A stretch of 64,000 bases of DNA, taken from contig NC_083570.1 in assembly GCF_027579695.1 (NCBI RefSeq), forward strand, positions 5,983,001 to 6,047,000. The letters are read 5' to 3'. A model generated the notes under the pieces. It made no database searches. It saw only the letters and a program-made list of their open reading frames with translations, and was not told the origin of the DNA. Source of the DNA: Neoarius graeffei (lineage: Eukaryota > Chordata > Actinopteri > Siluriformes > Ariidae). The translations under genes and the position numbers were made by a program. Shown here one piece after another: positions 15,161 to 61,371 of the stretch (its first letter is position 1; each line of letters opens with the position of its first letter).

Positions 15161-15339
15161 TCATTATTAATCCTAATCAGTGCAGTTACATGGGTTATAT
15201 TTCTGCACTGAAGGGAGATGAAATGGTTAATAGATGAGTGTTCATGATCTCTCTGTGTTTGTGCTCCTCCTCTTCCTCTATTGCTCTTTCACACACAGAA
15301 CCAGGAAGTAACTCCTCATTTCAGAGAAAACAAAACTGA

Positions 15340-15370
<31 letters not shown>

Positions 15371-15382
15371 GATTTCAGGAAA
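15161..15382 (+). promoter_or_regulatory. 5' flank and probable 5' UTR of TRIM gene A
   Basis: This stretch is paralogous to 51478-51680 upstream of gene C (shared words around cctaatcagtgc and aggaagt). Conservation up to the ATG suggests that it holds the promoter and 5' UTR of both genes. No TATA box is obvious. A (CT)n tract occupies 15341-15366 just before the start codon context ggaaaATGG. Confidence 0.45.
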
Positions 15383-18300
15383 ATGGCCGAGGCCAGTATT
15401 TCAGTAGATCAGCTTTCTGTGGACCAGTTCATGTGTCCAGTGTGTCTGGATCTCCTGAAGGATCCGGTGGCTATCCCCTGTGGTCACAGTTTCTGTAAGG
15501 TGTGTATTAATGGCTGCTGGGATCAGGAGGATCAGAAGGGCGTCTACAGCTGTCCTCAGTGCAGAGACACTTTCACGACAAGGCCTGTTCTACGCAGAAA
15601 CAACATGCTGGATGAAGTGGTGGAGAAACTGAAGAAGACTAAAGTCCAAGCTGCTTCTCCTGCTCACTGTTACGCTGGACCTGGAGATGTGGAGTGTGAT
15701 TTCTGCACCGGGAGAAAACACAAAGCCGTCAAGTCCTGTCTGATTTGTTTGACTTCATTTTGTGAAATTCATCTGAAACCTCATCTTGAAGTTCCTGCTT
15801 TGAAAATACACACATTAATTGAAGCCTCAGCAAAACTCCAAGAGAAGATCTGCTCTGAACATAACAAGCTGATTGAGATCTACTGTCGTACTGATCAAAC
15901 CTGCATCTGTTATTTGTGTACGATGGATCATCACAAAGGTCACGACACCATCACAGTTGCAGCAGAAAGAGCTGAGAAACAGGTGAGAACTAGAAATCTT
16001 TCCAGAATTAAATCATCTTAATTATACAACCCCGATTCCAAAAAAGTTGGGACAAAGTACAAATTGTAAATAAAAACGGAATGCAATGATGTGGAAGTTT
16101 CAAAATTCCATATTTTATTCAGAATAGAACATAGATGACATATCAAATGCTTAAACTGAGAAAATGTATCATTTAAAGAGAAAAATTAGGTGATTTTAAA
16201 TTTCATGACAACAACACATCTCAAAAAAGTTGGGACAAGGCCATGTTTCCCACTGTGAGACATCCCCTTTTCTCTTTACAACAGTCTGTAAATGTCTGGG
16301 GACTGAGGAGACAAGTTGCTCAAGTTTAGGGATAGGAATGTTAACCCATTCTTGTCTAATGTAGAATTCTAGTTGCTCAACTGTCTTAGGTCTTTTTTGT
16401 CGTATCTTCCGTTTTATGATGCGCCAAATGTTTTCTATGGGTGAAAGATCTGGACTGCAGGCTGGCCGGTTCAGTACCCGGACCCTTCTTCTACGCAGCC
16501 ATGATGCTGTAATTGATGCAGTATGTGGTTTGGCATTGTCATGTTGGAAAATGCAAGGTCTTCCCTGAAAGAGACGTTGTCTGGATGGGAGCATATGTTG
16601 CTCTAGAACCTGGATATACCTTTCAGCATTGATGGTGTCTTTCCAGATGTGTAAGCTGCCCATGATACACGCACTAATGCAACCCCATACCATCAGAGAT
16701 GCAGGCTTCTGAACTTAGCGCTCATAACAACTTGGGTCGTCCTTCTCCTCTTTAGTCCAAATGACACGGCGTCCCTGATTTCCATAAAGAACTTCAAACT
16801 TTGATTCATCTGACCACAGAACAGTTTTCCACTTTGCCACAGTCCATTTTAAATGAGCCTTGGCCCAGAGAAGACGTTTGCGCTTCTGGATCATGTTTAG
16901 ATATGGCTTCTTCTTTGAACTATAGAGTTTTAGCTGGCAACGGCGGATGGCATGGTGAATTGTGTTCACAGATAATGTTCTTTGGAAATATTCCTGAGCC
17001 CATTTTGTGATTTCCAATACAGAAGCATGCCTGTATGTGATGCAGTGCCGTCTAAGGGCCCGAAGATCACGGGCACCCAGTATGGTTTTCCGGCCTTGAC
17101 CCTTACGCACAGAGATTCTTCCAGATTCTCTGAATCTTTTGATGATATTATGCACTGTAAATGATGATATGTTCAAACTCTTTGCAATTTTACACTGTCA
17201 AACTCCTTTCTGATATTGCTCCACTATTTGTCGGCACAGAATTAGGGGGATTGGTGATCCTCTTCCCATCTTTACTTCTGAGAGCCGCTGCCACTCCATG
17301 ATGCTCTTTTTTTCCCAGTCATGTTAATGACCTATTGCCAATTGACCTAATGATTTGCAATTTGGTCCTCCAGCTGTTCCTTTTTTGTACCTTTAACTTT
17401 TCCAGCCTCTTATTGCCCCTGTCCCAACTTTTTTGAGATGTGTTGCTGTCATAAAATTTCAAATGAGCCAATATTTGGCATGAAATTTCAAAATGTCTCA
17501 CTTTCAACATTTGATATGTTGTCTATGTTCTATTGTGAATGCAATATCAGTTTTTGAGATTTGTAAATTATTGCATTCCGTTTTTATTTATTATTTATTT
17601 TATTTTTATTTTTTTATTCCTTTTCACTAGCCACAATTTTGTTGCCAGGAAATCGCAGTTTTTTCTTCACCATGATGCATTAAAGTTCGGAAGATCTAGA
17701 TTTAATTATGAATGGCAGCATATAATGTATCTCTACAGTAGCACTCAATACTCAGTGCTGTTAAGGTCGCTCCCTCTATGAAAACATGCAACCAGTTGAG
17801 ACAAAAATATAAACAGAGTATTCTGTTTATTGAACTCCAATTCAAGCCCCTTACAATATGAAATATCGTATAATATGAAAAATAGCATTCAGGACAACTG
17901 AAATGATTCTAATATTAAAAGTCCAATTCAAAACATTCATCACTGAAAAACATTTGATGTTTTGATATGCAAGTATTATGTGTATTATCAAGTATTATTA
18001 TGTATATTATGTATTATCTATTAGTGTGTGTGTGTGAACATGTGTAGAGAGAGACATTAAATGTCCTCATTACATTCATCATCAGATGAGTCTGAATGGT
18101 CTGTGAAAAATGGTCTTCATGACCTGAGGCTTCCAGCAGGCCATAAGTTGATAGCTGGGGTGAGATCAACTTCTTTCCAAACGCGTGAACGTTTCTAAAC
18201 AGCAGCTCCATCCTCTCCAGCTCAGCCGACTTCATGACAGCCAGGGACTGAAAGCAATGCTGTCCTGTAGTGAACCAGCCGTCTTTGCCTGTTTTGATGT

Positions 18301-21300
18301 TATAGTACCGATGTGTGCATTTGACTTTTTGTGGTCCTTTATAGTTTCGGGTTTAAAATTACTGGTGCCTGTCTTTGCCAGACTTTCTACAGTCTTCGCA
18401 GTACAGGGTATTTTCGGTTTTGCGATAAACTAGCCAATCTCACCCGAACTTCCATTTGTCATTGAACTGTCTTATCTTCCTATTAGCGTCTTGTTCATCT
18501 CCATGGCCGGAGCCAGCTATGAGGCCCCCGCGGTCTGGACCTTGGTCATTTTTGAGAGCTGAAAATACATTTGTACATTAAATATTCAATTGAATAAAAA
18601 ATAAAGAATAACATGAAAACTTCTTCGTAAAAAGTGCATTGATAATTATGTTAAATGTTGATTCTGTCTTCTGTGTGTATTTGGTGTGCACGGCTCTGAG
18701 ACCAAGAACACAAACGCGAATGAGCGCGCGACTCGGCGGAGGAACGCAGTGCAGGAGACACGGGGTTTTCATGGGAACCATCAGCGCACTTTCATCAAGC
18801 TGTTCAATTTACATTTTCGAAGCAGCGCAGTTGTAGCCAGACACGCAGCTTGTGAACAGGCAAGGCAGGCAACTGTTTGGGGCCCCCTGGCCCAGGGGCC
18901 TCCAAAGAGTCGGGGCCAGAGGGCTAATTTATTTTGTTTTTTATTGTTTTTATTGTTCTTTACCATTGTATTTTCATATTTGGAATTTAAAAAACTTTGC
19001 TTTCATACATTTTTCGTTGGTGTCAGATTATTTATAACATATTGGTGATGAACACTGGTCAGAAGGGCCCCCTGGAAATTTTTGCTTGGGGCCACAACAG
19101 ACTCTAGAATCGCCTCTGGTTGTAGCCTGCCTTGTTTGTGATTTTAAAAATAAATCATTGGATCAGCCAAAGCAATAGAGTGGAAAGTTTCAACTTATGT
19201 TTGCCTTGGGTAACTTTGCCTAAAACATGGTGGTGTATACTGTTTTTTTTTTTTTTTCCCAGAATTTTTTTTTTTTTTGTGTGTGTGTGTAGGTGTAACG
19301 GATGCCAGATTGTTAATGGATCTCAGTTCAATAGGCTACATGGTTAGGGGATCTTTTGTCCTCATTGCTTGGGCCAGATCAAACCATTAAACAAGCTTAA
19401 ATTATTCTTACTTTTGCCACATACATGATTTTTTTTTTTTCATAACTGATGATATTCAGTTCAAACACCATTAAGAGTAATTTCAGGAATAGATCTCTTG
19501 TGTGGCGTGTAATTCACCCCTCTCATTTAAATATGGTGAACATTTTTCGGCGTGCACTTTGCACATCACGGACCTCGGTGATTTTAAAAAGCTGCTCCGG
19601 CCCTGCGCATCTCTGCCCCTTTTTCCCTGAGCAGCAGGGTTTGAAACTCCAGCTATATGCCGCCACATAGTGCGCTTGTCAGTCGTCAGCAACTTTGTTG
19701 CTTCGTTCATTAACCACAGGTTACCGTATCATTGATTTTATCTGAGACGTTCTAAACAATTCTAACATGTTGTGTCAGAATGTTTATGCAGGTGCTCATG
19801 GGAGTTGTAGGCGCGTAATATTACATTGCAATGCGTTTATTATATCAGATGCCTTCAGAGAAAACTACAATTAAAATATATTGTCATCCCACAGAATAAA
19901 CCACCCACCAAAGAGGCTAGTGAGATGAAAGTTATTACCCGCCAAAGCCCAATTTTACCCGCATTTGGCAGGTGGGCGGGTGCTAATGTAAAGCCCTGGT
20001 GTGTATCAATCAGAAGGATTCTGTAAAAGCTGATTAAAATTGTCTGTGTTCTGGTGAACAGAGTGTTAAATTTATCTTCAGTGATGGTCGTAATCTGGTT
20101 CGGGGTGGGTTTCCTGATAACGTTGCCCTTTAGACCTAAAGACAGAGTTGAGAGACTCTCTTAAGGAACGAACGTTGTCTCTGTATGTGGTTTTCCCAAA
20201 CTCACTCGTAAGAAGGAGTCTAAAGAGCAACAGGACGAAGAGCGTCTTTGCAGTTCGCGTCCCTGAAGGCAATCATATTGGACATGACTAACAGTGTCCA
20301 AGTTAACTAGCTATGTGTAAACATTAGCCGTGGACAAGACTATGGCAACTTGGCGGGCAAATCCACAGAAAGTCATTTGACTAATCAGACTGTGTAGCGA
20401 TTGCAACGTTATCGCGAGCTCTAAAGCACAGACAACTTCACTGCAAGCTTTCTCTTGGAATAAAACGTTTATATCCCTCAATATGCTTCCGCAGGTCGGA
20501 TGGTGAGTTTTTGTAGGCTGTGATGTGCTCCGTTTTAGGCAAACAAAGCAAACATTTCAAATGAAACGACTCTTTATTCCTTCAGAAAACTGAACCATGG
20601 GTTCTAGCTATAGAACCGTGGGTGTGTGCATTCCCCAGAAGAACCGCCTCCTTCCATTCTGCCATCAACTGATCGTGTTAAATAATGCTGCGGAGAAATC
20701 ATTGATCTTGATTTTATCCAGTCTATGGACGTGATGTGACCCTAGTGATTACTGATAGACTGTCTCAGTGTCACCTGCGGAAAAAACAATCACGTTTTAG
20801 AAAAGAAAAACATCCACTTTCAAAGCAGCTTCATAGTAACGAGTAACGAGGACCTTGATAGAAATGTAGTGGAGTAAAAAGTACGATATTTATCTTTCAA
20901 ATGTAGTGAAGTTCAAGTCATAAGTTTCCAAAAAAAAATACTCAAGTAAAGTACAGATACTCAAAAAATGTATTTAAGTACAGAACTCAAGTAAATGTAC
21001 TTCGTTACTGTCCACCTCTGATAATTAACTCGATGTATTTGCAATGTACAAGAAAACTAATTGAACACCACCAGCAGATTCAACACCAGTTTCCCCCGCT
21101 GACTGTGAGAGTCCCTCAGAGCCGCATGCGCATTCTGTGGATTCGGCAGCGAGCGAGTCGCTCTTTGTTTTGAACGAGTGCTCCGGGTCTCTCGTAAATT
21201 CCGAGCAAACTAAAGGACGACTTGTGCTACGATGTTGTTCGGGAAAACCACGTTAGCTTGATGATGGATCTTAAGAGGTCATTTAAAACTCTCTTGGCCT

Positions 21301-21362
21301 TAAGAGGCTTTCGGGAAACCCAGCCCAGATCAGTTAGTGAACATTTCTCTCTCTCTCTCTCA

Positions 21363-21413
<51 letters not shown>

Positions 21414-21715
21414 ACCTTCAGAGCGAAACATGAATGTACTTTGAACTGACATTAATATGGAACCAGTTCGCTCGTACTGTATAAAAAGCTGAATGTATTT
21501 TATTTGTCCTCAGAGTGAGTTAAAGGAGGAGCAGATGAAATCCCAGCAGAGAATCCAGGAGAAGCAGAAGAAGGTGCAGGAGCTGAAACAGGCTGTGAAC
21601 ACTATAAAGGTGAGCAGTGAGCAGAGACAGAGCTGCTCCTAGAAACACACACAACATGGACAACGAGTCATTTACAGTCCCAGTAAGAGAGGGAATGATA
21701 GATGAGCTTTACATC

Positions 21716-21761
<46 letters not shown>

Positions 21762-24700
21762 TAACAGCTCAGTGCACAGACAGCAGTGGAGGACAGTGAG
21801 AGGATCTTTACTGAGCTGATCAGCTCCATGGAGAAAAAGCGCTGGGAGGTGACAGAGCTGATCAGAGATCAGGAGAAGGCTGAACTGAGTCGAGCTGAAC
21901 GACTCCTGGAGCAACTGGAGCAGGAGATTGCTGATCTTCAGAGGAGAGTCACTGAGCTGGAGCAGCTTTCACACACACACGATCACATCCATTTCCTCCA
22001 GGTAACACTCACTGTCTGATCTACAGAGCCAGCTGTTCCTCACACACTCTCTAAAACACCTCTCATTAAGGGAACAATAAATGTCCCTGTCTGACATCAC
22101 AAGTGGGTTTTACATTTCATTTGCTTTCTGTAGGTTTTAGCTTCTGGACGTCGCTCTCCTACATTACCCAGACCAGAGTTTCACACATCCAGCGTCACTG
22201 TCCATCAACATCTCTCATTTGATGGAGTGAGGAATTCTCTCTCAGATCTGAAAAAGAGACTCGAGGAATTCTGTGAGGAGGAATTCAACAAAATGCCTCC
22301 ACATGGTAAGAGGAGCTGTTCCTGCTGGAGAAACACAGTGATGTGTTATTTCTTAGCGATGCTCCTGCTTTCTTTTCTGCAGACACTTTATTCACCCGAC
22401 ACTTTGAACTAAAACACTGATTTAAAATGAATAAACTGACTGGATCACTTTCAACTCTTTCCATCTTTTACACAAACTCATGTTTCTATTTTTCTCTCCA
22501 CAGCTGCAGCAGTTCAGATCATTTCAGAACCAGAACCACAGAGCAGAGAAGAGTTTCTGAAATGTACATCTAACACACACACACACACACACACTCTTCT
22601 GGGCCTGTCACGATGATAAATTTTGTTGGATGATATATTGTCTCAAATTATTGCGATAAATATTATTGTTGACGTCTTTTCAAGACAATTTTATGCCACT
22701 AGTAAAATAATAATGATCATGCAAATACACCCTTTCATAGAACAGTAAACTTTTTAATTAAGTCAACTTATTCAATACAACAGTGGAACGTAAAAAATAA
22801 ATATAAATAAATAAGCTAAAGAAATAAAAAAAAACAATCAAACAAAACCACTCACAACAAAAACAATAAATAAAATACAATTTATGGCTCTTAAAAATTG
22901 CACTGAAGTGAATATTAACTTGGCACAGGGTAATAAAAAGACATTCTTTTCTTCACAGGCAACATTCTGCCAATCCAGTTTCTCAAAGATTAGTACCCAG
23001 ATCAACAAAAAGTGCAAAGTAACAACGTATTGCCAGCTGTCATTTGGATAAAAGTCACAACAATTAGAACGAGATAACATGTAGGCAAGGGCGTAGGTTT
23101 GGTATTAACATTGGTGGGGACAAAAACCCAATGCCAACCCCCAGTGGTGCCAACTTCAGGTCAACATTAGAGGGTCACAATATTTTGCTCTGTTGTGTTC
23201 CACCAAAAGAGTCTCCATCATCTCTCCAAAGGCCAGACTTTTAACATTTGAAGTTCAGAACTGTAGTAATTCATGAATAATAATAATAATAATAATAATA
23301 TGAAATCCATTTGATTAACTGCAAATCTTGCATGTGATGATGAACTCATTCTACCAATTTGCAAATGTGTTTTCCAAGCGAATACCGCACTGACTGTCGG
23401 GAGGGTGTATGTTCCTTTCCCTCATAAATGGAAATAAAACCCATCCGGAGCCTTAAACACTGCGTTCCATGAGGCTGGCAGGGGGAGTCGCTCTCTTCAG
23501 TGGGATCTTTAACTAGTTTTAGAATGCTAGTTTAAGCTGATATGTGATTGATCTAACGGTAAAACAGCACGAGGGCTCGAGAACTTGGACAGGTTACAAT
23601 TTTACTTCAGGGTTGCCAGATACTGCTGACGTTTTCCAACCCAAAATATGTTCAAAACCGCCCAAAATGTAAAATGGACTTGATGCCTATCTTGTAAAGT
23701 AAAAATATGCAGCTAAAGTCCAGTATACTATTTGTAAATCGAACAAATAGCACCATGAGCCCGTCAGTGCTGGAGGTGAAGAATCTGCTGTCTGGTACTC
23801 GGCTCCGTGTGGTTCAATCAGATTATAACTCTGCAATCATCTGCTGTGTTCTGAATCCTACATGCACCAGTAGGTGGCGCACACGCAGAATTTTATGTAG
23901 GCTATGTTAGGCTGCTGGGCCATAGAAGGTTCACGCTGCACGCTGCATGCTGCACGCTACACGTTCACGTGAAGAACCGGACCCTGGGCCATTAAACTTC
24001 ATGCTTGGATGTTCACGTGTTGCGTCTGTTCTACTTTGACCGAGTAACCAACAATATGGACTCTTCGGATGACGACGATTGCCTCATTCTGCTTTTACTG
24101 AGACAGAGGAAGAGAAAAAGGAACAGAATTTGGAGCCGAGAACACTTCCTTCTGAGAGAAACCCGTGGTGAATTTCACCGAACATTCTATAATCTGCTTG
24201 ACAATCCCGATGAAGAACTATTTTTCAATTATACCATTCAATTATATTTTTTCTGAAGTTTTCCCCTGAAAGCATAGAGTTATCTCCCTAGACCCGTTCT
24301 GATTGGCTGGCGCGGCGGTGACCGCATGCATTGACTGGAATTTCCGTCTTCACGCCTAGAAAAAAGTGTGCATGTTCATTTCATGCTTCACGCGTGAAGT
24401 GTGCAGCGTGCAGCGTGCAACGTGAACGCCGTTCTATGGCCCAGAGCAAGTCATGCTACGTTTGTCCACTTTTCTTTACACGCGTGTAGCGTGCAGCATG
24501 CAGCGTGCAGCGTGAACCTTCTATGGCCCAGCAGCCTTAGGCTACGATGCATATCTAACATCTGCATTGTTGAGGTTATTATTTATTTATTTATCTTTTT
24601 ATCCTGTTTGTTTTATTAATTTTATAGGCCTAGTTATTCTGCTTAATTTATTTTTGTCTACATCCATGTATTTTCTTCATCTGTTATCCTGATTTTTGTG

Positions 24701-27366
24701 GATTTGTTAGATTGTACCTGTTTTATATACTTCAATTAAAAAAAAAAGTTAGGCTGCGATGCATGGCTGAATGTAACATTAGAAGAGAAAATGGAGAATG
24801 GATTGCGTCATTCTTATTTACTAGTTTATGAGTTCAGTTTCTGCACTACATTACACACATTCATATTAGTCTTACAGTTACATCGACATTGTTTTGTTTA
24901 AATAATACTTAATGAGAAATGTTTGTTAATGATCAATTTAAGCCAATGCTCGATTTTGGTTGTGTAAAATACCTAAGGGGTGCTGGGTAAACTAGGTCTT
25001 TGTGTCGTGTGATGCCCGCGATCTCTGATTGGGTCACAGAAGTGTTTAATATGGATTGGATTGGATCGGGGCGATTTCTCAGAGACAACAAGGGAAGCCG
25101 AGCTTCCCCTAAAATTCTCTCCCCAAACTGCGGCGTCTACGATGTTGAATTCTCATTAAAACAATAACTTGCATAACATAATATATGCCCAAGATTGTAT
25201 TTATGTTCATAACTATCCCTTTGTCATCCTGTAACTTATTTGAGTGATGTCTGACGAACTTGCAGTTCGCTACGAGAATCACCTTTGCTGCCAGGCTGTA
25301 ACCTTTCTTATTTCAATGGGCTCTATGGACTGGCAGCCGGGTATCCGTTGCAGTCTACGAGACGGCTCTGAACAGCCAATTTCGGCTAGTTGTTATTGGT
25401 TAAAATCGACAAAATCATCACTTCCAGGGAAGCCGGGTATCTCTGGGGGTAAACGGGACATGGGCGGGCCAATAAGCCGGGCTGATAAAGGATTATTGGA
25501 GGTGGTGTTTGAAAGACATGAGGAGGGCACTCGCTGTACTTCGGCGAGGAACACGGAAGCATGATCAGTCAGTCCCTAGCGGATGTCGAGAAAGTGTAGT
25601 CGTGTGCCAAAGTGCTGTCCGAATTTCTTTTCATATAAACGTTTCTTCTCATTGATGTCTCTGTGCATTACTCTGTAAATAAATGTAAATATTACTCATT
25701 GTGCTCCGTTAACTTTCATCCATTCTATCAGTTTGATCATTTGTGAATTCACTCGTTTATTTCATTTGTAGTTCAATCAACATGGTTGTAGGCTAGCTTG
25801 AGCCTTATTGGGATCTGCAGTGCTAGCTGCTAACAGCTGGTATCTATCTGCTATAATGGCAAAGTACGGCCAGTCATTTTGCCCCGCCCCCGCCTCGCGC
25901 TCCGTCCAGTGCGGTAGTGATGTCCCGTTGCTCGCGCGCCACAGCAGAGACCCGCGCGACCTTCAGCCGGTACAGTCGCTGTTCTTTTACCACCTCCGTT
26001 ATTCTCATCTTTCCGGTGCGTTATTGATTTTTCCATTGTGTCCTATTTTGCCATATCAAATACCCAAAATGGTATCGTATTATTCATATTTAAGTGAATA
26101 ATCAATTGTCATCATAACTTGGCATTTTTAACCCAATCAATCAAAAAGAGGAAATTTTTTTTCAATATTTTCAAAAAGTTTTACAAAAATATTTGAATTG
26201 TAATAAAAAAAATTCCACAGCAGAGGCCAGATAAGGCAAGACGCTATCTTTATTCTTATTAAACATGATAAAAGAAACATTGAGTGTTAGGTAAATGCAA
26301 AAAAAAAAAAAAGTAAAATTAGAAAATTTATTTTTTGACTATAATGTCCCAAATGAGAGAGCGGTTTCTGAGACAGACCCACATAACAAATTGACTCATG
26401 ACAAATAACTGAAAAATTGTATTACGTAGACCTAAAACTGAGCTTCGCCTATTTCAAAGCCCACCAGCCGCCACTGGATTGGATGTAGACTAGTGGACGG
26501 AGATAGTACATAGAATGCGCTGCATCAAAGTCCTTCTAAGGCTGTAGAAGTGTCTCTGGCTGCATTCTCACACAGAACATTCGTGCGAAATGTTTATAAA
26601 CATCTGATAAAAACCCGCCGAAATAACGTCAAAACCGCCCAATCTGGCAACACGGTTTTACTTGGCAACAGGATGTATCTGAATTCTGATTGGTTGTTGT
26701 ATCTGAATTCTGATTGGTTGTTGTACAGAGAAACGTTTTCACTGCAACCGAACGGCTGTTTTCGTGACCACGCCCCCAGCGCGGATATTCATGTTCACAT
26801 TGTTCAGTTTGTTTTTCTCTTTTATTTTAGATTTCTGTTATCTGACTCTGGATCCCAACACGGCACATCGTCGCCTCATTCTGTCTGAGAAGAACAGAGC
26901 GGTGAGATGCAGTGAGAGAGAGCAGCGTTACTCTGATCATCCAGAGAGATTTGATTCCTGCTGGCAGGTGTTGTGTAAGGAGAGTGTGTGTGGACGCTGT
27001 TACTGGGAGGTGGAGTGGAGCCGTGCTGATGGTGTGGGCATATCAGTCTCATATAAAGACATCAGCAGGAAAGGACGGGGTAATGAGTGTCTGTTTGGAT
27101 TCAACAATCAGTCCTGGAGTCTGTGGTGTTCTTCTTCTTCTCTCTGTTTCTATCACAACAGCATTGAGACTGATCTCAGAGTTCCATCACCCTCCAGAAT
27201 AGGAGTGTATGTGGATCACAGTGCAGGAACTCTGTCCTTCTACAGCGTCTCTGACACGATGAAGCTCCTCCACAGAGTCCACACCACATTCACTCAGACT
27301 CTATACGCAGGGTTCTGGCTCCCCTGGGTTTCTGGTTCTACAGTGAGATTGTGTGATCCAGAATAA
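15383..27366 (+). CDS. TRIM gene A: complete RING/B-box/coiled-coil/PRY-SPRY E3 ligase (finTRIM-like)
   Basis: Six exons: 15383-15982, 21514-21609, 21768-22001, 22134-22305, 22504-22563 and 26831-27366. All have GT-AG borders and agreeing phases, totalling 1698 bp (565 residues plus stop). RING: C18, C21, C33, H35, C38, C41, C57, C60. First B-box about 105-134 (CDFC...C..C...C..H). Second B-box about 157-187 (C157, H160, C168, C176, C179, H184, H187). Coiled coil about 201-310. PRY-SPRY about 388-565 ([37 protein letters not shown]). Such fish TRIMs are ubiquitin ligases, many of them induced by virus; the B30.2 loops set target choice. An antiviral role here is inference. Introns 1 and 5 are expanded by transposons, yet the coding frame is clean, so the gene is probably functional. 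Confidence 0.88.
16025..17590 (-). mobile_element. Tc1-like transposon with one nonsense codon, right end lost
   Basis: It lies in intron 1 of TRIM gene A. The left TIR begins caaccccgattcc after a TA. Internal inverted repeats around 16211 and 17416 share caaaaaagttgggaca. The transposase is on the minus strand (17176-16196): a helix-turn-helix N-terminal part, VLWSDESKFEV (first D), FQHDNAKPHTA (second D) and SPDLSPIENIW (E), a DDE Tc1 catalytic core. A single in-frame TAA at 16717-16715 interrupts it, and the frame continues unchanged on the other side. The right outer TIR has been replaced by AT-rich sequence, so it cannot move by itself. Confidence 0.9.
17591..18837. other. intron sequence of TRIM gene A, nothing recognised
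   Basis: AT-rich at first, then GC-richer from about 18050. A 73-codon minus-strand frame (18235-18014, MKSAELERMELLFRNVHAFGKK...) has no splice support or family match. No repeat could be named. Confidence 0.4.
18838..19118. mobile_element. short non-autonomous hAT element, 281 bp
   Basis: The ends are cagacacgc and, from the other strand, cagaggcga. They are flanked by a perfect 8-bp target duplication gttgtagc at 18830-18837 and 19119-19126, as expected for hAT transposition. The interior is rich in ggggccccc words and has no transposase. It lies in intron 1 of TRIM gene A. Confidence 0.8.
19119..20834. other. intron sequence of TRIM gene A, nothing recognised
   Basis: Poly-T runs near 19240-19280 and 19430. 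Several open frames of 60-75 codons lack splice or domain support. No named repeat was seen. Confidence 0.4.
20835..21021. mobile_element. hAT-like end with 'acttaagtac' internal words (fragment)
   Basis: On the minus strand it begins cagaggtggacagtaacgaa and continues with repeated acttgagta/tacttaagta words, a pattern common to a very abundant fish hAT-derived repeat (from memory). A related patch of 'gttactgg...gtaacgcattac' lies at 1590-1660. No target duplication was found. Confidence 0.45.
21346..21402. repeat. (CT)n(CA)n microsatellite
   Basis: Alternating CT of about 35 bp runs into alternating CA of about 20 bp. It sits about 110 bp before exon 2 of TRIM gene A. Confidence 0.95.
21718..21758. 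repeat. (GT)n microsatellite in TRIM gene A intron 2
   Basis: A pure GT run of about 41 bp, ten bases before the acceptor of the 234-bp coiled-coil exon. It can serve as the polypyrimidine-like stretch. The inverted counterpart is at 9849-9888 in gene B. Confidence 0.95.
22593..23080. repeat. AT-rich repeat in intron 5, shared with gene C
   Basis: Sequence from cctgtcacgatgataaat onward is shared with 52285-52720 in the equivalent intron of gene C. It therefore predates the duplication that made the two genes. The start looks like the end of a dispersed DNA element, but the family is not identified. Confidence 0.5.
23279..23300. repeat. (AAT)n microsatellite
   Basis: A short run of AAT units within a stretch (about 23040-23460) that is absent from the paralogous intron of gene C. 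Confidence 0.9.
23910..24536 (+). mobile_element. PIF/Harbinger internal-deletion derivative, 627 bp
   Basis: Long terminal inverted repeats of about 50 bp begin ggctgctgggccatag and contain 'cgtgcagc' words. They are flanked by the 3-bp duplication TTA (23907-23909 and 24537-24539), typical of Harbinger. From 24056 a 66-codon frame reads like the N-terminal start of a Harbinger transposase (REHFLLRETRGEFHRTF, DEELFFNY) and then stops, so the catalytic part has been deleted. The empty site is present in the second copy of element K near 41520. This element therefore moved after the K copies separated. Confidence 0.85.
25067..26476. mobile_element. non-autonomous hAT element E2, 1.4 kb
   Basis: The left end cggggcgatttctcag and the right end, from the other strand, cagtggcggctggtgg are flanked by a perfect 8-bp duplication gattggat (25059-25066 and 26477-26484). 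It is homologous to element E1 at 49940-51375, which has a different target duplication, so the two are independent insertions of one family. The 106-codon frame at 25244 has no transposase features. Confidence 0.85.
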
Positions 27367-35779: not shown

Positions 35780-37191
35780 AGAGCGGGGGGGGGAGTGACA
35801 GGGTTCTACAGAGAAAAGTTTTTGGCCTCCAGCTTTCAAATGAACTGCCTCGAAAACCAATCAGCTTAGCGGATGTGTGGACTCGGTATGTGACATTTTC
35901 AAAAGAGAGGCGGAGTCACCAAACATTTCTGATCCAGAAGGCGGAAGCTGTTCTGCTTATTACGTGAAAATGTTTGATTTGATTAAAAGGTGTCTGGGCC
36001 TCGAACAATGTCCACATCACCATCGGGTTGTTGTTGTTTACATGTGTCATGTTACCCAAACTCGGTCAGGGCTCTGCAGGTCTTAACTGAAGCGCTTCAA
36101 ATTAAGGGTTAGCGGGCTGCTAAAGTTTGAAGGCGCTTCACAAGCAAGACTCAGTGCAATATTAACCAACATTAGCACAATCTGATATGATTTAATAATA
36201 TCTTTGTGACCTTAATGAACACCAGTTGTTGTATCAAGTCGGATTGTTATTTACATGCCACACAAACTTAGAAAACAGTCATATTCATATGTTGTCGTTT
36301 TTACACACTGAATCCGAACTGTTGTGAACTGATTAATTTTCTGAGCTAATCTAACGCTGCATACCTCAAGGACAGTTTGATAGCTAGCAGCCGCTCACTG
36401 CATTGCAACCGCACTTCCTAATTGACATGGTAGCCGAACAGGCATGTTGTTTCCGTGACCACGCCCCCAGAGTGAATATTCATGAGTGAATTTTGCATGG
36501 TTCCGCCCAGTGGAAACCTACAGGAACCCTTTGTGTACCGCGCACGGAGCGGATTTTTATTTTCTCTAATCAGAAATATTGGTAGGGACCCGTCCATCCC
36601 GTCCAGACCCAATTCTACACCTATGGTCTGTACAGCGGAGCACTGTGTTGTTGTCTTTTCCCCATTCAGTGGATCCCCTGGCTGGATAACTGTTGCATGC
36701 TGGGAAGCCCCGCCTCTGACAGAGAGCCGCGCGAGATGACAGAAAACAGTGCAGTGTTTTATTCAGTCATTGGGTCAAACTAATACTCTGGAGACTTCCC
36801 TATGGAGATGGACAGCACGGAAATGCCAAAACCACGGTGGAAAAATTACCGAGTTCATTTTCATTTACCGTACGATAAGTCGGTATATCAAATATCACGA
36901 CAGGCCTACACACTTCACATCAATATATTTTGTGAAATAAACCCAACACACATTGTTCAGTTTGTTTTTCTCTTTTATTTTAGATTTCTGTTATCTGACT
37001 CTGGATCCCAACACGGCACATCGTCTCCTCATTCTGTCTGAGAAGAACAGAGCGGTGAGAGTCAGTGAGAGAGAGCAGCGTTACTCTGATCATCCAGAGA
37101 GATTTGATTCCTGGTGGCAGGTGTTGTGTAAGGAGAGTGTGTGTGGACGCTGTTACTGGGAGGTGGAGTGGAGCCGTGCTGGTGTGTCCAT
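35780..37191 (+). pseudogene. TRIM gene D remnant: intron plus truncated PRY exon
   Basis: Sequence from 35785 (gagtgacagggttctacagag) matches the intron of gene C at about 52955. The stretch near 36430-36480 (gaccacgcccccag) also matches. After an AG acceptor at 36982-36983 the exon reads [33 protein letters not shown] and [16 protein letters not shown]. It breaks off inside SPRY at about 37191, where L1 sequence begins. No RING, coiled coil or rest of B30.2 was found. The segment 36490-36940 has no match in genes A and C and looks inserted. Confidence 0.75.
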
Positions 37192-44700: not shown

Positions 44701-46543
44701 GGTGCCGGAGGTTGTCCTTAACACAGATGCTTCTGGAAGGGGATGGGGTGCTACTTCGGGCAGTTGTTCTACTCAGGGTTTGTGGTTGCCTGAGGAGGCT
44801 TTTTACCATATCAATGTTTTAGAATTATTGGCTGTCAAATTGGGCTTAAGAGCTCTTCTTGATCAAACTCGAAATCAACACATCCGTATCACTTCAAACA
44901 ATACCACCACAGTGATCTACATTAATGCCATGGGAGGTTGTAGGGTTCCAGCTTGTGACACCATTGCAAAAGATATTTGGTCATGGGCGGTAGAATGTGA
45001 GAACTGGCTGTCCGCAGCACATGTAGCTGGAATTCGAAATACCATTGCAGATCATTTATCACGCCAGTTGAACCCTGAGGTGGAATTGGAACTGAGTCCT
45101 AATATATTCAGGAAGCTTACGCACTGTTTTGGTGTTCCTGATATTGACTTGTTTGCAAGTAGACTGAACCACAAGGTTAAGTCCTATGTGTCATGGAAGC
45201 CTGACCCGCACTCAACATATATAGATGCTTTCTCGTTAAATTGGGGAGAATTTGCTAATGCCTATGCATTTCCCCCGTTTTGTCTAATTGGCAGGTGCCT
45301 TCACAAGGTCACCCTAGAGCAAGCCACCTTGATTATTGTTGTCCCAATGTGGAATACACAAGCATGGTTCACCAATTTACTAAGGCTGTTGATCGATCAT
45401 CCTCGAGTTGTCCGAGTGACCAAGGGAATCCTCTCAAACCCACTGCACGGCAAGGTCCATCCACTGAGTCCCAAACTCCATCTTCTGGTATGCAGAATAT
45501 CAGGAAGGAGTTCTCTAAGCACAACATACCTTCAGAAATTATCGAGGTCCTCCTATGTGCCTGGCGAGACGGAACACAGAAGCAATATAACGTCTACCTG
45601 CACAAATGGACACAGTTTTGTTTACAAAGGAAAGTGGATTCCATGCAGCCCACTGTGAATGATGTGCTCAAGTTTCTCCACGATTGGTACAAGAAGGGCT
45701 TAGCCTATTCCACTATGAACACAGCGCGTTCAGCTTTATCTAATTATTTAATGGGCACACCCTTATCTGGAACTCATTATACTGTGGCCAATCATCCATT
45801 TATTGTTCGTTATTTCAGGGGTGTTTTCAATTGTCGAAAACCTGAAACATGGGACGTTGATGTTGTGTTAGATTATATGAAGTTATTATACCCTTTGGAC
45901 AAGCTTTCATTAAAAGAACTTGCGTTAAAGTTAGTGGGCGTTCTTGCCCTTACCTCAGGACGGAGATGTCAAACTTTAGTTCATTTGGATATTGAATGCA
46001 TGAAGAAAACACAGAATTATCATTTATTCCAACTAACGGAGCACATGAAGCAGAGTAGACCAGGAAATACGTTTGATTCCTTCTATGTAATAAAATACCA
46101 GGAACAGGAATTGTGTGTTTATATGACACTAGAACATTATCTTCAGCGAACTTTGTTACATTGTCAGCCTGGACACACAAAAATGTTGCTTTCGTATGTT
46201 AAGCCTTTTTCACCAGTTGGAACCAGCACAGTAGGTCGATGGATTAAAACACTTCTTGACTTAAGTGGCATAAACACTGCTAACTTTAAGGCACACAGCA
46301 CTCGTTCCACTAGCGTAAGTAAAGCTAGTCAGATGGTTCCAGTAGATACTATTTTGAAACATGTAGGCTGGTCTGCAGAGTCAGCTTTCTGCAAATTCTA
46401 TGACAAACCTGTTGTAACAAATGGTGCGTTCCAAAATGCTGTCCTGGAATAAAAAATTGTTTACTTGCAAGGATGGTTGTGTCCATAATTGTGCTTTAAA
46501 ATCTCATGTTAACCCGAAGTACGTCACTGCGATTTGGTAGAAT
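41761..46543 (+). mobile_element. DIRS-type (tyrosine recombinase) retroelement, looks whole
   Basis: Inverted terminal repeats of 28 exact bases (41761-41788 and 46516-46543), extending imperfectly to about 42 bp, enclose three long open frames. These are a gag-like frame (42576-43406), a reverse transcriptase/RNase H/methylase-like frame (43595-45658, with RT core YIDDS) and an overlapping tyrosine recombinase frame (45280-46452, with the HSTRSTSVSKAS and HVGWS blocks of that family). Overlapping frames and inverted ends with no target duplication are normal for DIRS. No obvious breaks were seen, so the copy looks young. The leader carries four short repeated motifs (42108-42303) and a 66-bp tandem duplication (about 42459-42570). 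It is treated here as a fossil or resident element. Confidence 0.9.
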
Positions 46544-51420: not shown

Positions 51421-51680
51421 GGTTTTTTTTGGACATTTTAGTGGAGTCCACTGAATCAACTTTCATAAAATGTCATGAAATTAATCCTAATCAGTGCGGC
51501 TACATGGGTTATATTTCTGCACTGAAAGGAGATGAAATGGTTAATAGAGGAGCGTTCATGACCTCTCTGTGCTCCCCCTCTTCCGAGCTCTCTCTCTTTC
51601 TCACACAGGACCAGGAAGTGACTCGTCATTTCAGAGAAAACAAAACTGATCTCTCTCTCTTTTGGTGTGAGTTCAGGAAA

Positions 51681-53605
51681 ATGGCCGAGGCCAGTATTTC
51701 AGTAGATCAGCTTTCTGTGGACCAGTTCATGTGTCCAGTGTGTCTGGATCTCCTGAAGGATCCGGTGGCTATCTCCTGTGGTCACAGTTTCTGTAAGGCG
51801 TGTATTAATGGCTGCTGGGATCAGGAGGATCAGAAGGGCGTCTACAGCTGTCCTCAGTGCAGAGACACTTTCACTACAAGGCCTGTTCTACGCAGAAACA
51901 ACATGCTGGCTGAAGTGGTGGAGAAACTGAAGAAGACTGAAGATCTGAAAAAGAGACTCGAGGAATTCTGTGAGGAGGAATTCAACAAAATCCCTCCACA
52001 TGGTAAGAGGAGCTGTTCCTGCTGGAGAAACACAGTGATGTGTTATTTCTTAGCGATGCTCCTGCTTTCTTTTCTGCAGACACTTTATTCACCCGACACT
52101 TTGAACTAAAACACTGATTTAAAATGAATAAACTGACTGGATCACTTTAAACTCTTTCCATCTTTTACACAAACTCATGTTTCTGTTTTTCTCTCCACAG
52201 CTGCAGCAGTTCAGATCATTTCAGAACCAGAACCACAGAGCAGAGAAGAGTTTCTGAAATGTACAGCTAACACACACACACTTCTAGTCCTGTTACGATG
52301 ATAAATTTTATTGGATGATATATTGTCTCAGAAATTATTGTGATAAACGATATTATTGTTGATTGTCTTTTCAAGACCATTTTATGCCACTAGTAAAATA
52401 ATAATGATCATGCAAATACACCCTTTCATAGAACAGTAAACTTTTTAATTAAGTCAACTTATTCAATTCAACAATGGAACGTAAACAATAAATATAAATA
52501 AATAAGCTAAAGAAATAAAACAATCAAACAAAACCACTCACAACAAAAACAATAAATAAAATACAATTTATGGCTCTTAAAAATTGCACTGAAGTGAATA
52601 TTAACTTGGCACAGGGTAATAAAAAGACATTCTTTTCTTCACAGGCAACATTCTGCCAATCCAGTTTCTCAAAGATTAGTACCCAGATCAACAAAACGTG
52701 CAAAGTAACAACGTATTGCCACTGCGTTCCATGAGGCTGGCAGGGGGAGTCGCTCTCTTTTGTGGAATATTTAACTAGTTTTAGAATGCTAGTTTAAGCT
52801 GATATGTGATTGATCTAATGGTAAAACAGCACGAGGGCTCGAGAACTTTGACAGGTTACAATTTTACTTGGAAACAGGATGTATCTGAATTCTGATTGGT
52901 TGTTATATTATTGCCCTTTTGTTGTGTTCTTGAGCCCAGAGTGGGGGGAGGGGGGAGTGACAGGGTTCTACAGAGAAAAGTTTTCACTGCAACCGAACTG
53001 CTGTTTTCGTGACCACGCCCCCAGCGCGGATATTCATGTTCACATTGTTCAGTTTGTTTTTCTCTTTTATTTTAGATTTCTGTTATCTGACTCTGGATCC
53101 CAACACGGCACATCGTCTCCTCATTCTGTCTAAGAAGAACAGAGCGGTGAGATACAGTGAGAGAGAGCAGCGTTACTCTGATCATCCAGAGAGATTTGAT
53201 TCCTGGTGGCAGATGTTGTGTAAGGAGAGTGTGTGTGGACGCTGTTACTGGGAGGTGGAGTGGAGCGGTAATGGTGGTGTGTCCATATCAGTCTCATATA
53301 AAGACATCAGCAGGAAAGGACGGGGTAATGAGTGTCGTTTTGGATTCAACAATCAGTCCTGGAGACTGGGTTGTTTTTCTTCTTCTCTCTCTTTCTGTCA
53401 CAACAGCATTGAGACTGATCTCAGAGTTCCATCAGCCTCCAGAATAGGAGTGTATGTGGATTACAGTGCAGGAACTCTGTCCTTCTACAGCGTCTCTGAC
53501 ACGATGAAGCTCCTCCACAGAGTCCACACCACATTCACTCAGCCTCTATACGCTGGGTTTGGGGTCTACTGGAGTTCTACAGTGAGATTGTGTGATCCAG
53601 AATAA
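51681..53605 (+). CDS. TRIM gene C: in-frame RING-PRY/SPRY protein lacking B-boxes and most of the coiled coil
   Basis: Three exons, 51681-52002, 52201-52260 and 53076-53605, with GT-AG borders and agreeing phases give 912 bp (303 residues plus stop). RING (CPVC...CGHSFC..C...CPQC) occupies about 18-60. At residue 86-87 the sequence jumps from KLKKTE to [16 protein letters not shown], which in gene A belongs to exon 4. The first exon is therefore a fusion of the RING exon with the end of exon 4. PRY-SPRY follows from about residue 128 and is complete ([44 protein letters not shown]). Known TRIMs dimerise through the coiled coil, so this product would probably be monomeric or form a different assembly. 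RING-SPRY proteins without B-boxes exist (RNF135-like, from memory). The clean frame suggests it may be expressed. Confidence 0.82.
52285..52720. repeat. AT-rich repeat in the gene C intron, shared with gene A
   Basis: Counterpart of 22593-23080. It starts similarly (cctgttacgatgataaat) and runs to gtattgcca, where gene A has about 420 extra bp. It predates the A/C duplication. Confidence 0.5.
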
Positions 53606-55653: not shown

Positions 55654-57989
55654 CTCGTCTCGTCTCGTCTTCTTCCGCTTATCCAGGACCGGGTCGCGGA
55701 GGCAGCAGTCTAAGCATGGAAGCCCCAACTTCCCTTTCCCCAGACACCTCGGCCAGCTCCTCGGGAAGAACACCGAGGCGTTCCCAGGCCAGCCGAGAGA
55801 CATAGTCCCTCCAGCATGTCCTGGGTCTTCCCCGGGGCCTCCTCCCGGGGGGACATGCCTGGAACACCTCCCCAGGGAGGCGTCCAGGAGGCATCCGAAA
55901 AAGATGCCCGAGCCACCTCAGCTGGTTCCTCTTGATGTGGAGGAGCAGCGGCTCTACTCCGAGCTCCTCCCGAGTGACTGTGCTTCTCACCCTATCTCTA
56001 AGGGAGCGCCCAGCCACCCTGCGAAGGAAACTCATTTCAGCCGCTTGTATCCGCGATCTTGTTCTTTCTGTCATTACCCAAAGCTCATGACCCTAGGTGA
56101 GAGTCGGAACGTAGATCGACCGGTAAATTGAGAGCTTCGCCTTTTGGCTCAGCTCCTTCTTCACCACGACGGACCGGTAAAGCGACCGCATCACTGCGGA
56201 GGCTGCACCGATCCGCCTGTCGATCTCACACTCCATCCTTCCCTCACTCGTGAACAATATCCCGAGATACTTAAACTCCTCCACTTGAGGCAGGACTTCT
56301 CCACCAACCTGGAGAGGGCAAGCCACCCTTTTCCGGTCGAGAACCATGGCCTCGGACTTGGAGGTGCTGATTCTCATCCCAGCCGCTTCACACTCGACTG
56401 CAAACCGCCCCAGTGCATGCTGAAGGTCCTGGTTTGAAGAAGCCAACAGGACAACATCATCCGCAAAAAGCAGAGATGAAATCCTGTGGTTCCCAAACAG
56501 GATTCCTTCCGGCCCCTGGCTGCGCCTAGAAATTCTGTCCATAAAAATTATGAACAGAACCGGTGACAAAGGGCAGCCCTGCCGGAGTCCAACATGCACT
56601 GGGAACAGGTCTGACTTACTGCCGGCAATGCGAACCAGACTCCTGCTCCGTTTGTACAGGGACCGGACAGCCCTTAACAAAGAGCCCCGAACCCCATACT
56701 CCCGAAGCACCCCCCACAGAATACCACAGGGGACACGGTCGAATGCCTTCTCCAGATCCACAAAGCACATGTGGACTGGTTGGGCAAACTCCCATGAACC
56801 CTCGAGCACCCTATGAAGGGTATAGAGCTGGTCCAGTGTTCCGCGACCAGGACAAAAACCGCATTGTTCCTCCTGGATCCGAGGTTCGACTATTGGTCGA
56901 ATTCTCCTCTCCAGTACCCTGGAGTAAACTTTCCCTGGGAGGCTGAGAAGTGTGATTCCCCTATAATTGGAGCACACTCTCCGGTCCCCTTTCTTAAAAA
57001 GAGGGACCACCACCCCAGTCTGCCACTCCAGAGGCACTGTCCCCGACCGCCACGCGATGTTGCAGAGGCGTGTCAACCAAGACAGCCCCACAACATCCAG
57101 AGACTTGAGATACTCATGGCGGATCTCATCCACCCCCGGTGCCTTGCCACCGAGGAGCTTGCAAACCACCTCAGTGACTTCAGCTTGGGTAATGGACGAG
57201 TCCACCTCTGAGTCATCAGCCTCAGTCTCCTCAGTGGAAGACATGACGGTGGGATTGAGGAGATCCTCAAAGTATTCCTTCCACCACCCGACAATGTCCC
57301 CAGTCGAGGTCAACAGCTCCCCACCCACACTGTAAACAGTGTTGGCAGAGTACTGCTTCCCCCTCCTGAGGCGCCGGACGGTTTGCCAGAATTTCTTCGA
57401 GGCCGACCGATAGTCCTTCTCCATGGCCTCCCCGAACTCCTCCCAGTTCCGAGTTTTTGCCTCTGCAACTGCCCGAGCTGCAGCACGCCTGGCCTGCCGA
57501 TACCCGTCGGCTGCCTCAGGAGTCCCGGAGGTCCCTCCTAGAACTGCCACCTTATTGTGGTGGAGGGGTTTGTGTGCTTGAATGATCCTAGGAGCTATGT
57601 TGTCGGGGGCATTATGCCCCTGTTAGGGTTTCCCAAGGCAGACAGGTCCTAGGTGACAGTCCAGACCAAGAGCAGTTCACCAAAAAAACCCCTATGGAGA
57701 AAAAATCCAGGACCGTGACGTCGCCTGGTAGGATGCAGCCGGGGCCCCACCCTGGAGCCAGGCCCAGGGTTGGGGCTCGTATGCGAGCACTTGGTGGCCG
57801 GGCCTTTGCCCATGGGGCCCGGTCGGGCTCAACCCGAAGAGGTGACGTGGGGCCGACCTCCTGTGGGTTCACCACCCACAGAGGTAGCGGTAGGGGTTTG
57901 GTGCAGTGTGGATTGCGTGGCAGTCGAAGGCAGGGGCCTCGACGACCTGATCCCCGGACACAGTGGCTAGCTGTTGGGACATGGAATGT
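55654..57989 (-). mobile_element. Rex3 LINE (RTE clade), copy A, with 5' inversion
   Basis: Minus-strand frame 57532-55679 holds the reverse transcriptase (NYRGITLLSLPGKVYSRVLE, CFVDLEKAFDRVP, GLRQGCPLSPVLF, LLFADDVVLLA) and the C-terminal region (LGHLFRMPPGRLP, RDYVSRLAWERLG). Sites near 56560 and 57011 match, from memory, the standard Rex3 primer pair, which supports the name. From 57533 to 57989 the sequence is the element's own 5' end in the opposite orientation. About 1 kb of the endonuclease region between the two parts is missing. The target duplication cgattcctggt flanks the whole (55643-55653, 57990-58000). The tail consists of (gacga)n units. The short frames on the other strand are shadows. 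Confidence 0.92.
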
Positions 57990-58193
57990 CGATTCCTGGT
58001 GATTTACCATTTTTCGTTTGGTTTAATGCAATTTCAATTTCTGTTATAGTTCATTCCTCATCAAGTGTATGTTTGTCTTCATCCATTTCTTTGATGTCAT
58101 CATTGATGGGATAAAATAAGACCTCACATTCTGATTTATTAAATTCAAGTTACAATAAAAGAGCCAAATTTCATCCTGTACTCATTTCTGATC

Positions 58194-61100
58194 CCCTCCT
58201 AGAACTGCCACCTTATTGTGGTGGAGGGGTTTGTGTGCTTGAATGATCCTTTGAGCTATGTTGTCGGGGGCATTATGCCCCTGTCAGGGTTTCCCAAGGC
58301 AGACAGGTCCTAGGTGACAGGCCAGACCAAGAGCAGTTCACCAAAACCCCTAATGGAGCAACAACCAAGGACCAAGACGTCGCCCGGTATGGCGCAGCCA
58401 GGGCCCCACCCTGGAGCCAAGCCCGGGGTTGGGGCTCGCATGCGAGTGCTTGGTGGCCGGGCCTTTGCCCATGGGGCCCGGCCGGGCTCAGCCTGAAGAG
58501 TTGATGTGGGCCCGACCTCCTGTGGGTTCACCACCCACAGAGGTAGCGGTAAGGGGCTGGTGCAGTGTGGATTGGGTGGCAGTCGAAGGCAGGGGCCTCG
58601 ACGACCTGATCCCTGGACACAGCGGCTAGCTGTTGGGACATGGAATGTCACTTCGCTGGGGGGGAAAGAGCCTGAGCTTGTGCGCGAGGTTGAGAGGTAC
58701 TGGCTAGAGATAGTCAGGCTCACCTCCACGCACAGCTTGGGCTCTGGAACCCAGCTCCTTGAGAGGGGCTGGACTCTCCACTTCTCTGGAGTCACCCATG
58801 CTGAGCAGCGGAGGGCTGGTGTGGGCTTGCTTATAGCTCCCCTGCTCAGCCGCCATGTGTTGGAGTTTACCCCAGTGAACGAGAGGGTCGCCTCTCTGCG
58901 CCTTCGGATTGGGGAGAGGGCTCTTGCTGTTGTTTGTGCCTACGGGCCGAATAGCAGTGTAGAGTATCTGGCCTTCTTGGAGTCCCTGGGAGAGGTACTG
59001 AGGGGTGCTCAGACTGGGGACTCCATTGTGCTACTGGGGGACTTCAATGCTCACGTGGGTGACGACAGTGACACCTGGAAGGGCATGGTTGGGAGGAACG
59101 GCCTCCCCGATCTGAACCCGAGTGGTGTTTTGTTATTGGACTTCTGTGCTAGTCACAGTTTGTCCGTAACAAACACCATGTTCAAGCATAGGGGTGTCCA
59201 TAAGTGCACGTGGCACCAGGACACCTTAGGTTGGAGGTCGATGATAGACTTCGTTGTCGTTTCATCTGATCTCCGGCCCTATGTCTTGGACACTCGGGTG
59301 AAGAGAGGGGCTGAGGTGTCAACTGATCACCACCTGGTGGTGAGTTGGATCCGCTGGCGGTGGAGGAAGCTGGACAGACCTGGCAGGCCCAAATGTATGG
59401 TGAGGGTCTGCTGGGAACGTCTGGCCGAGCACTCTTTTGGGGAGGTCTTTAACTCCCACCTCCGGGAGAGCTTTTCCCAGCTTCCGGGGGAGAGGGGGGG
59501 ACATTGAGTCTGAGTGGACCATGTTCTTTACCTCCATTGTGGACGTGGCTGTTCAGAGCTGTGGCCGCAAGGTCTCCGGTGCCTGTCGTGGCGGCAATCC
59601 CCGAACCCGGTGGTGGACACCGGAAGTAAGGGATGCCGTCAAGCTGAAGAAGGAGTCCTATCAGGCCATGTTGACCTCCAGGACTCCTGAGGCAGCTGAT
59701 GGGTATCGGCAGGCCAGGCGTGCTGCAGCTCGGGCAGTTGCGGAGGCAAAAACTCGGAACTGGGAGGAGTTCGGGGAGGCCATGGAGAAGGACTATCGGT
59801 CGGCCTCGAAGAATTTCTGGCAAACCGTCTGGCACCTCAGGAGGGGGAAGCAGTACTCTACCAACACTGTTTACAGTGCGGGAGGGGGAGCTGTTGACCT
59901 CGACTGGGGACATTGTCGGGTGGTGGAAGGAATACTTTGAGGATCTCCTCAATCCCACCGTCATGTCTTCCACTGAGGAGACTGAGGCTGATGACTCAGA
60001 GGTGGACTCATCCATTACCCAAGCCGAAGTCACTGAGGTGGTTTGCAAGCTCCTCGGTGGCAAGGCACCGGGGGTGGATGAGATCCGCCCTGAGTATCTC
60101 AAGTTTCTGGATGTTGTGGGGCTGTCTTGGTTGACACGCCTCTGCAACATCGCGTGGCGGTCAGGGACAGTGCCTATGGAGTGGCAGACTGGGGTGGTGG
60201 TCCCTCTTTTTAAGAAAGGGGACCGGAGAGTGTGCTCCAATTACAGGGGAATCACACTTCTCAGCCTCCCAGGGAAGGTTTACTCCAGGATACTGGAGAG
60301 GAGAATTCGACTCATAGTTGAACCTCGGATCCAGGAGGAACAATGCGGTTTTTGTCCTGGTCGCCGAACACTGGACCAGCTCTATACCCTTCATAGGGTG
60401 CTCAAGGGTTCATGGGAGTTTGCCCAACCAGTCCACATGTGCTTTGTGGATCTGGAGAAGGCATTCGACAGTGTCCCCCATGGTATTCTGTGGGGGGTGC
60501 TTCGGGAGTATGGGGTTCGGGGCCCTTTGCTAAGGGCTGTCCGGTCCCTGTACGAACGGAGCAAGAGTCTGGTTTGCATTGCCGGCAGTAAGTCAGACCT
60601 CCAACATGCACTGGGGCGGTTTTCAGTCGAGTGTGAAGCGGCTGGGATGAGAATCAGCACCTCCAAGTCCGAGGCCATTGTTCTTGACCGGAAAAGGGTG
60701 GCTTGCCCTCTCCAGGTTGGTGGAGAAGTTCTGCCTCAAGTGGAGGAGTTTAAGTATCTCGGGATCTTGTTTACGAGTGAGGGAAGGATGGAGCGTGAGA
60801 TCGACAGGCAGATTGGTGCAGCCTCCGCAGTGATGCGGTCGCTTTACCGGTCCGTCATGGTGAAGAAGGAGCTGAGCCAAAAGGCGAAGCTCTCAATTTA
60901 CCGGTCGATCTACGTTCCGACTCTCACCTATGGTCATGAGCTTTGGGTAACGACCGAAAGAACAAGATCGCGGATACAAGCGGCCAAAATGACTTTTCTT
61001 CGCAGGGTGGCTGGGCGCTCCTTTAGAGATAGGGTGAGATGCACAGTCACTCAGGAGGAGCTCGGAGTAGAGCTGCTGCTCCTCCACATCAAGAGGAATC

Positions 61101-61371
61101 AGCTGAGGTGGCTCGGGCATCTTTTTTGGATGCCTCCTGGACGCCTCCCTGGGGAGGTGTTCCAGGCATGTCCCCCTGGGAGGAGGCCCCAGGGAAGACC
61201 CAGGACACGCTGGAGGGACTATGTCTCTCGGCTGGTCTGGGAACGCCTTGGTGTTCTTCCCGAGGAGCTGGCCGAGGTGTCTGGGGAAAGGGAAGTTTGG
61301 GCTTCCACGCTTAGAGTGCTGCCTCCGCGACCCGGTCCCAGATAAAGTGGAAGAAGACGAGACAAGAAGAG
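58194..61371 (+). mobile_element. Rex3 LINE, copy B, near full length with RT core deleted
   Basis: Plus-strand element of about 3.18 kb from the 5' end ccctcctagaactgcc to a (gacga)-type tail, flanked by the 14-bp duplication actcatttctgatc (58180-58193, 61372-61385). The endonuclease frame 58506-59507 shows [28 protein letters not shown] and [13 protein letters not shown]. The RT frame 59699-61345 shows NYRGITLLSLPGKVYSRILE and CFVDLEKAFDSVPHGIL. Between SKSD and LQHALGRF, 61 residues present in copy A are absent, including the FADD catalytic motif; a shared gacct at the edges suggests a microhomology deletion. Frame changes near 59500 and 59880 also interrupt it. It cannot be active. Confidence 0.92.

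Follow-up and report, generated by a model that had tools for sequence, protein, structure and literature searches.

A putative RING-SPRY ligase gene formed by in-frame deletion in a finTRIM-type array and present in four copies

The window, the 64-kb stretch of DNA that was analyzed, comprises bases 5983001-6047000 of contig C2 in a 2.34-Gb genome; this contig is distinct from the gene copy C2 described below. Three TRIM gene layouts were found in the window, namely a full-length gene (gene A), a gene without B-boxes (gene B), and a gene with the RING-SPRY layout (gene C) (Table 1). The exons of gene A were 600, 96, 234, 172, 60, and 536 nt in length, and a Pfam search of its product identified RING, B-box (one model), TRIM_CC (E 1.4e-47), PRY, and SPRY. 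The exon order described for finTRIM genes is 555-594, 96, 234, 154, 60, and about 545 nt (PMC2657112). Gene A matches this published order and, by exon order alone, set beside the published sizes, has the finTRIM architecture, whereas gene C keeps only the ends of this layout.

Gene B lies on the minus strand (window 10733-9400). Its RING exon departs from that of gene A within a few bases of the position of the joint in gene C, and by our own reading it is without both B-boxes, with both coiled-coil exons kept; a SPRY exon for gene B was not found within the 64-kb window. An isolated fragment from the 5′ part of a SPRY exon, 201 nt in length and 97.5% identical to gene A, was located at 36984-37184. 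At 42546-46452, ORFs of retroelement type were observed (reverse transcriptase and recombinase-like), which by eye alone look DIRS/Ngaro-like, and LINE-like reverse-transcriptase ORFs (named by eye only) running in opposite directions were observed in a GC-rich block at 56093-61345.

Table 1. Positions of genes A and C, the associated features, and the copies of gene C (window coordinates unless the contig is given)
Feature	Position	Strand	Description
Gene A	15383..27366	+	Full length, 565 codons; exons 15383-15982, 21514-21609, 21768-22001, 22134-22305, 22504-22563, 26831-27366
ISRE-like string	51634..51647	+	GAGAAAACAAAACT; 47 bases before gene C ATG
Gene C exon 1	51681..52002	+	322 nt; RING part (codons 1-87, finTRIM-type exon 1) and final 61 nt of exon 4
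Deletion joint	51941..51942	+	2-base AG common to both parent breakpoints (aligned parent strings)
Gene C exon 2	52201..52260	+	60 nt; equals exon 5 of the full-length type; 100% identity with A
Gene C exon 3	53076..53605	+	530 nt; PRY-SPRY (B30.2; Pfam) and stop codon; 93.5% nt identity to A exon 6
Copy C1	contig C2:6034481	+	Window copy; intact
Copy C2	contig C2:7813943 (7.81 Mb)		Intact
Copy C3	contig C2:7433737	-	2 bases lost near SPRY end (frameshift)
Copy C4	contig C2:4776606	-	1 base lost in RING (frameshift), then stops

Exon 1 of gene C showed 98% matches to nucleotides 1-262 of exon 1 and nucleotides 111-172 of exon 4 of gene A. The splice sites were gt/ag, and the open frame consisted of 303 codons and a stop codon. 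In the predicted protein, Pfam identified a C3HC4 RING at residues 18-60 (zf-C3HC4_4, E 5.4e-14), PRY at residues 132-179, and SPRY at residues 183-300, and neither the B-box nor the TRIM_CC model gave a match at an E value of 0.001. Among the elements of the TRIM (RBCC) arrangement, the N-terminal RING is present, and the B-box and coiled coil are absent, the DNA encoding them having been deleted. The C3HC4 zinc ligands were complete in both C1 and C2.

In the alignment with the parent strings, codon 87 of exon 1 passed into codon 38 of exon 4 at the joint, and the final 20 codons of exon 4 were retained. The DNA of gene C aligned with gene A at 15166-15644 and then from 22244 on, the second stretch running from the exon-4 tail through intron 4 and exon 5 to exon 6, with parts of intron 5 aligned. 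Because both downstream introns are kept, the joint arose by a genomic deletion, and an origin as a retrocopy is ruled out. As read from the parent strings, none of the three breakpoint placements permitted by the AG overlap yields a GT-AG intron. An earlier sequence-only reading of this DNA had proposed that an in-frame deletion, joining exon 1 to the exon-4 tail at a shared "ag", gave a RING-SPRY gene; the alignment confirmed this fusion and its frame, and the retained introns support the deletion as a genomic event. The exon coordinates, splice phases, and 303-codon frame given in that reading were verified by the exon map and splice sites, and the Pfam results bore out the loss of both B-boxes and the main coiled coil. 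Its figure of over 6 kb for the lost sequence proved true of the distance in gene A, but not of two other six-exon paralogs. The interval between the exon-1 and exon-4 breakpoints is 6.6 kb in gene A, because the intron that separates exon 1 from exon 2 is approximately 4 kb longer there, and approximately 2.4 and 2.6 kb in L034, which has one stop within its SPRY, and L037, respectively. These shorter intervals suggest that the original loss was nearer to 2.4 kb than to 6 kb, and the piece lost from the parent was probably about 2.4 kb.

A 38-base pattern spanning the joint (three or fewer mismatches) was found at four sites genome-wide, and the backward control gave none. The search with the joint-region DNA returned 43 matches from the best 40 of 805 candidates, and four of the matches listed extended past the joint for more than a few bases. 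The duplicates are located 1.3-1.8 Mb from the window copy. C2 and C3 were 99.6% and 99.3% identical to C1 over 7.6 and 9.8 kb, respectively, and C4 was 94-97% identical in the aligned pieces, with an insertion in its 5′ region. The 303-codon frame and the splice sites were intact in C1 and C2. The same joint at four sites shows that the fused gene itself was duplicated, and gene C is best placed in a small finTRIM-type subfamily that was copied recently.

Upstream of gene C, an ISRE-like string agrees at 13 of 14 positions, with one mismatch, with an ISRE consensus. A lax ISRE-like pattern, whose chance rate was uncontrolled, matched 19 of the 21 aligned upstream regions, the exceptions being those of gene B and C4. 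In C4, the insertion separates the ATG from the upstream piece that matches.

Very large finTRIM-type arrays extend over approximately 3.7-14.6 Mb of contig C2. The search with the protein of gene C placed 127 of the best 130 matches on this contig (1782 candidates), and all of the best 40 matches to L032 were located at 12.5-14.6 Mb. L032 itself contains a second, independent in-frame fusion (L032:4074-4943; contig C2:14607074-14607943), in which the RING, the B-box-1 region, and part of B-box 2 are joined to SPRY with no intron and the coiled coil and PRY are lost. It comprises 289 codons from the ATG, yields only RING and SPRY in Pfam, and was the sole full-length match among the best 40 places. 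Eleven paralogs, gene A and L060-L069, differed by 0.09-0.87% in introns 2-4 and by 0.08% in exon 3, the ten fetched loci being the top matches to the exon-4-tail region and hence selected for similarity in that part. Codons 1-37 of exon 4 (window 22134-22244 in gene A) nevertheless contained a hypervariable patch among them (pN 0.075, pS 0.045). The likeness of these 11 paralogs did not extend to the intron that precedes exon 2, with a mean identity of 74%, or to intron 5, which was alignable in 10 of 55 pairs (region edges one base out in both comparisons). The SPRY exons of another paralog set differed by 4.4% on average.

The RING of gene C and its C-terminal helix (residues 14-85) gave their best matches to TRIM25 RING structures (5eya and 5fer), and the RING also matched TRIM5 RING structures. 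TRIM RINGs pair through the helices that flank the RING on both sides (PMC4864278; PMC7752041), and the isolated TRIM25 RING carrying V72R showed no significant activity (PMC4864278). The helix following the RING is kept whole in gene C, and the valine of the dimer core, V72 of TRIM25, aligns with V79; not every contact is retained, E10, T67, and N71 of TRIM25 corresponding to Q15, N74, and E78, respectively (numbering offset counted by hand). Some self-association through this retained helix may therefore occur. In an AlphaFold2 model of exon 1, whose input alignment covered exon 1 without an exon-4 row, a single helix spanned the joint from residue 68 to residue 102 with low confidence (block means 61-82). 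The model had a mean pLDDT of 58 and a pTM of 0.32, with values below 50 for residues 1-21 and 23-36, part of the RING included. This model hints that the helix may be continuous across the joint. The heptad or helix register across the joint was non-significant (shuffle p 0.06), three of the seven offsets giving a moment of 0.28 or more.

Several other explanations of the fused gene were considered. That the joint is an assembly artefact is extremely improbable: the array is highly repetitive and a single assembly was examined, but the identical joint occurs at four sites, among them C4, which is several percent diverged and has its own insertion and frameshift. The sequence-only reading had raised the same doubt, and on checking it was not borne out, the joint being present in all four copies. 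The joint may also be a chimaera of two paralogs instead of a deletion within one gene. The closest unfused match to the 5′ side had 96% identity among the matches listed, and the 3′ side had 99-100% identity in all of the best 40 places out of 421 candidates (three of them copies of gene C), so that the 3′ parent cannot be named. A serious rival is decay, according to which gene C would be a young, non-functional by-product that came out in frame by chance, was carried along in segmental duplications, and is decaying in all copies; we regard this as a tangible possibility that falls short of being probable. An in-frame result has a one-in-three prior, and two of the four copies are broken, so that gene C is dispensable or young. 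Per region, the differences among C1, C2, and C3 amount to 0-0.9%, with one further change within the 60-nt exon 2, so their open frames may simply be young, and they are too alike for purifying selection to be detected. Among the first and last exons, two of eight were broken in the copies of gene C versus 1 of 45 in the non-fused paralogs (Fisher p 0.056, with the test picked after the data were seen). The 45 exons consisted of 18 RING parts, all open over 84-87 codons, and 27 SPRY exons, one with a stop, from paralogs that were best matches and no random draw; the exon-1 locus L016 was missed by the start pattern. On the other side, two copies are wholly intact and still have their splice sites and the ISRE-like string, and gene C shows no excess over other paralogs in private changes at conserved SPRY sites: at otherwise invariant columns, C1 had three private residues, and the other 22 distinct sequences had 0 to 3, which gives no clear sign of relaxed constraint. 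SPRY exons diversify in this family, with a mean dN of 0.054 and a mean dS of 0.023 (55 pairs of 11 sequences, including the broken genes C4 and L005 and C3 trimmed at its frameshift). C1 and C2 differed in SPRY by three replacement and no silent changes, and C1 and C4 by 27.5 replacement and 1.5 silent changes. Because the SPRY distances were star-like and the flanks mosaic in the comparison of C1 and C4, selection after the fusion is inseparable from gene conversion as the source of the latter changes.

The gene C product could also act as a decoy or dominant-negative protein that damps the signalling of full-length paralogs, competing with them for ligands or for E2, and both the RING and the SPRY are kept while the coiled coil is lost. 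We consider this improbable. Without the coiled coil, gene C cannot join gene A in the usual way, and pairing of this kind with A is impossible. The sequence-only reading had described the SPRY of gene C as close to identical to that of gene A; most of the 175 aligned columns are indeed the same, but 22 amino-acid differences were found between C1 and A, and 18 of these fall in the 65 columns that are variable among 25 other paralogs (hypergeometric p 6e-6). These family-variable columns are likely ligand-contact sites, and the location of the differences suggests that gene C probably does not recognize what gene A recognizes. A shared ligand is accordingly unlikely for A and possible for another paralog, and the dominant-negative partnership with gene A proposed in the sequence-only reading appears weak.

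We favor, with a probability of roughly one half, the reading that gene C encodes a minimal, weakly self-associating RING-SPRY ligase, a putative protein whose expression is unproven. A single genomic deletion with a 2-base overlap took out both B-boxes, the exons of the coiled coil, and exon 4 up to its last third. The RING, together with the helix at its C-terminal end, thereby came to be joined in frame to PRY-SPRY by way of the exon-4 tail, and the upstream region with the ISRE-like string stayed in place. The protein would be a minimal E3 that locates its target through SPRY and makes weak RING-RING contacts via the retained helix, which is possibly unbroken over the joint, with activity mainly when targets or E2~ubiquitin gather several copies. 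This function and these helix-mediated contacts are inferred, whereas the deletion, the open frame in two of the four copies, the duplication of the fused gene, and the complete C3HC4 RING were demonstrated. Speaking against this reading, the coiled coil significantly raises TRIM25 activity, the RING-B-box-coiled-coil unit being significantly more active than the RING alone (PMC4864278; PMC7752041). The antiviral effect of FTR83 needs both RING and B30.2 (PMC5445110). The proposal of the sequence-only reading, a new short ligase that would still bind its target although the usual dimer scaffold is gone, is plausible. A further-reaching version holds that gene C founds a functional, interferon-responsive, coiled-coil-free finTRIM subfamily, i.e., a sensor of approximately 34 kDa in which the exon-4 tail lengthens the RING helix in line, recognition diversifies by SPRY alone, and target clustering triggers ubiquitin transfer. 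The two intact copies and the independent RING-to-SPRY deletion of L032 in the same genome are compatible with this version, which we nevertheless consider rather unlikely. Gene C can be viewed as a clean natural deletion experiment: if C1 or C2 is expressed and active, a finTRIM-type protein can work without its dimer scaffold. It also shows how quickly new domain arrangements are produced and multiplied as a TRIM array expands.

The domain set of gene C, RING and PRY-SPRY only, fits the TRIM-derived RING-B30.2 genes of the btr31 and RNF39 type. RNF39 is not known to have a B-box or a coiled coil, and RNF135/Riplet, which unlike gene C is not known to be the product of a recent deletion, retains its coiled coil. 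RNF135/Riplet is described as a TRIM-like RING protein without a B-box, a feature shared with gene C (PMC10445537). RNF39 resembles gene C as an E3 with a C-terminal PRY-SPRY that is not named as one of the TRIM genes in whose cluster it lies (PMC8222901); it is an MHC-region gene kept across tetrapods (PMC10445537) and differs from gene C in not deriving from a recent finTRIM deletion. Zebrafish btr31, an EST-supported, bloodthirsty-related TRIM, has an N-terminal RING and a C-terminal B30.2 with the B-boxes and coiled coil gone, and, like gene C, was recently duplicated, having arisen from a full-length neighbour (PMC3137616). It belongs to the btr family, and its middle was swapped for a transmembrane exon in at least two events (PMC3137616), whereas gene C is finTRIM-type, acquired no new exon, resulted from one deletion, and is present in four copies. 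The finTRIM (ftr) family is reported to be virus-induced, with its B30.2 under positive selection (PMC2657112); gene C differs from it in being without the exon-1 B-boxes, the two exons for the coiled coil, and the greater part of exon 4, and no finTRIM with RING placed straight onto B30.2 was found among the titles and abstract openings listed in literature searches. Zebrafish btr31 and mammalian RNF39 are thus the closest precedents among those found: the RING-SPRY layout was known before, and what appears new here is a finTRIM-type variant made by direct deletion.
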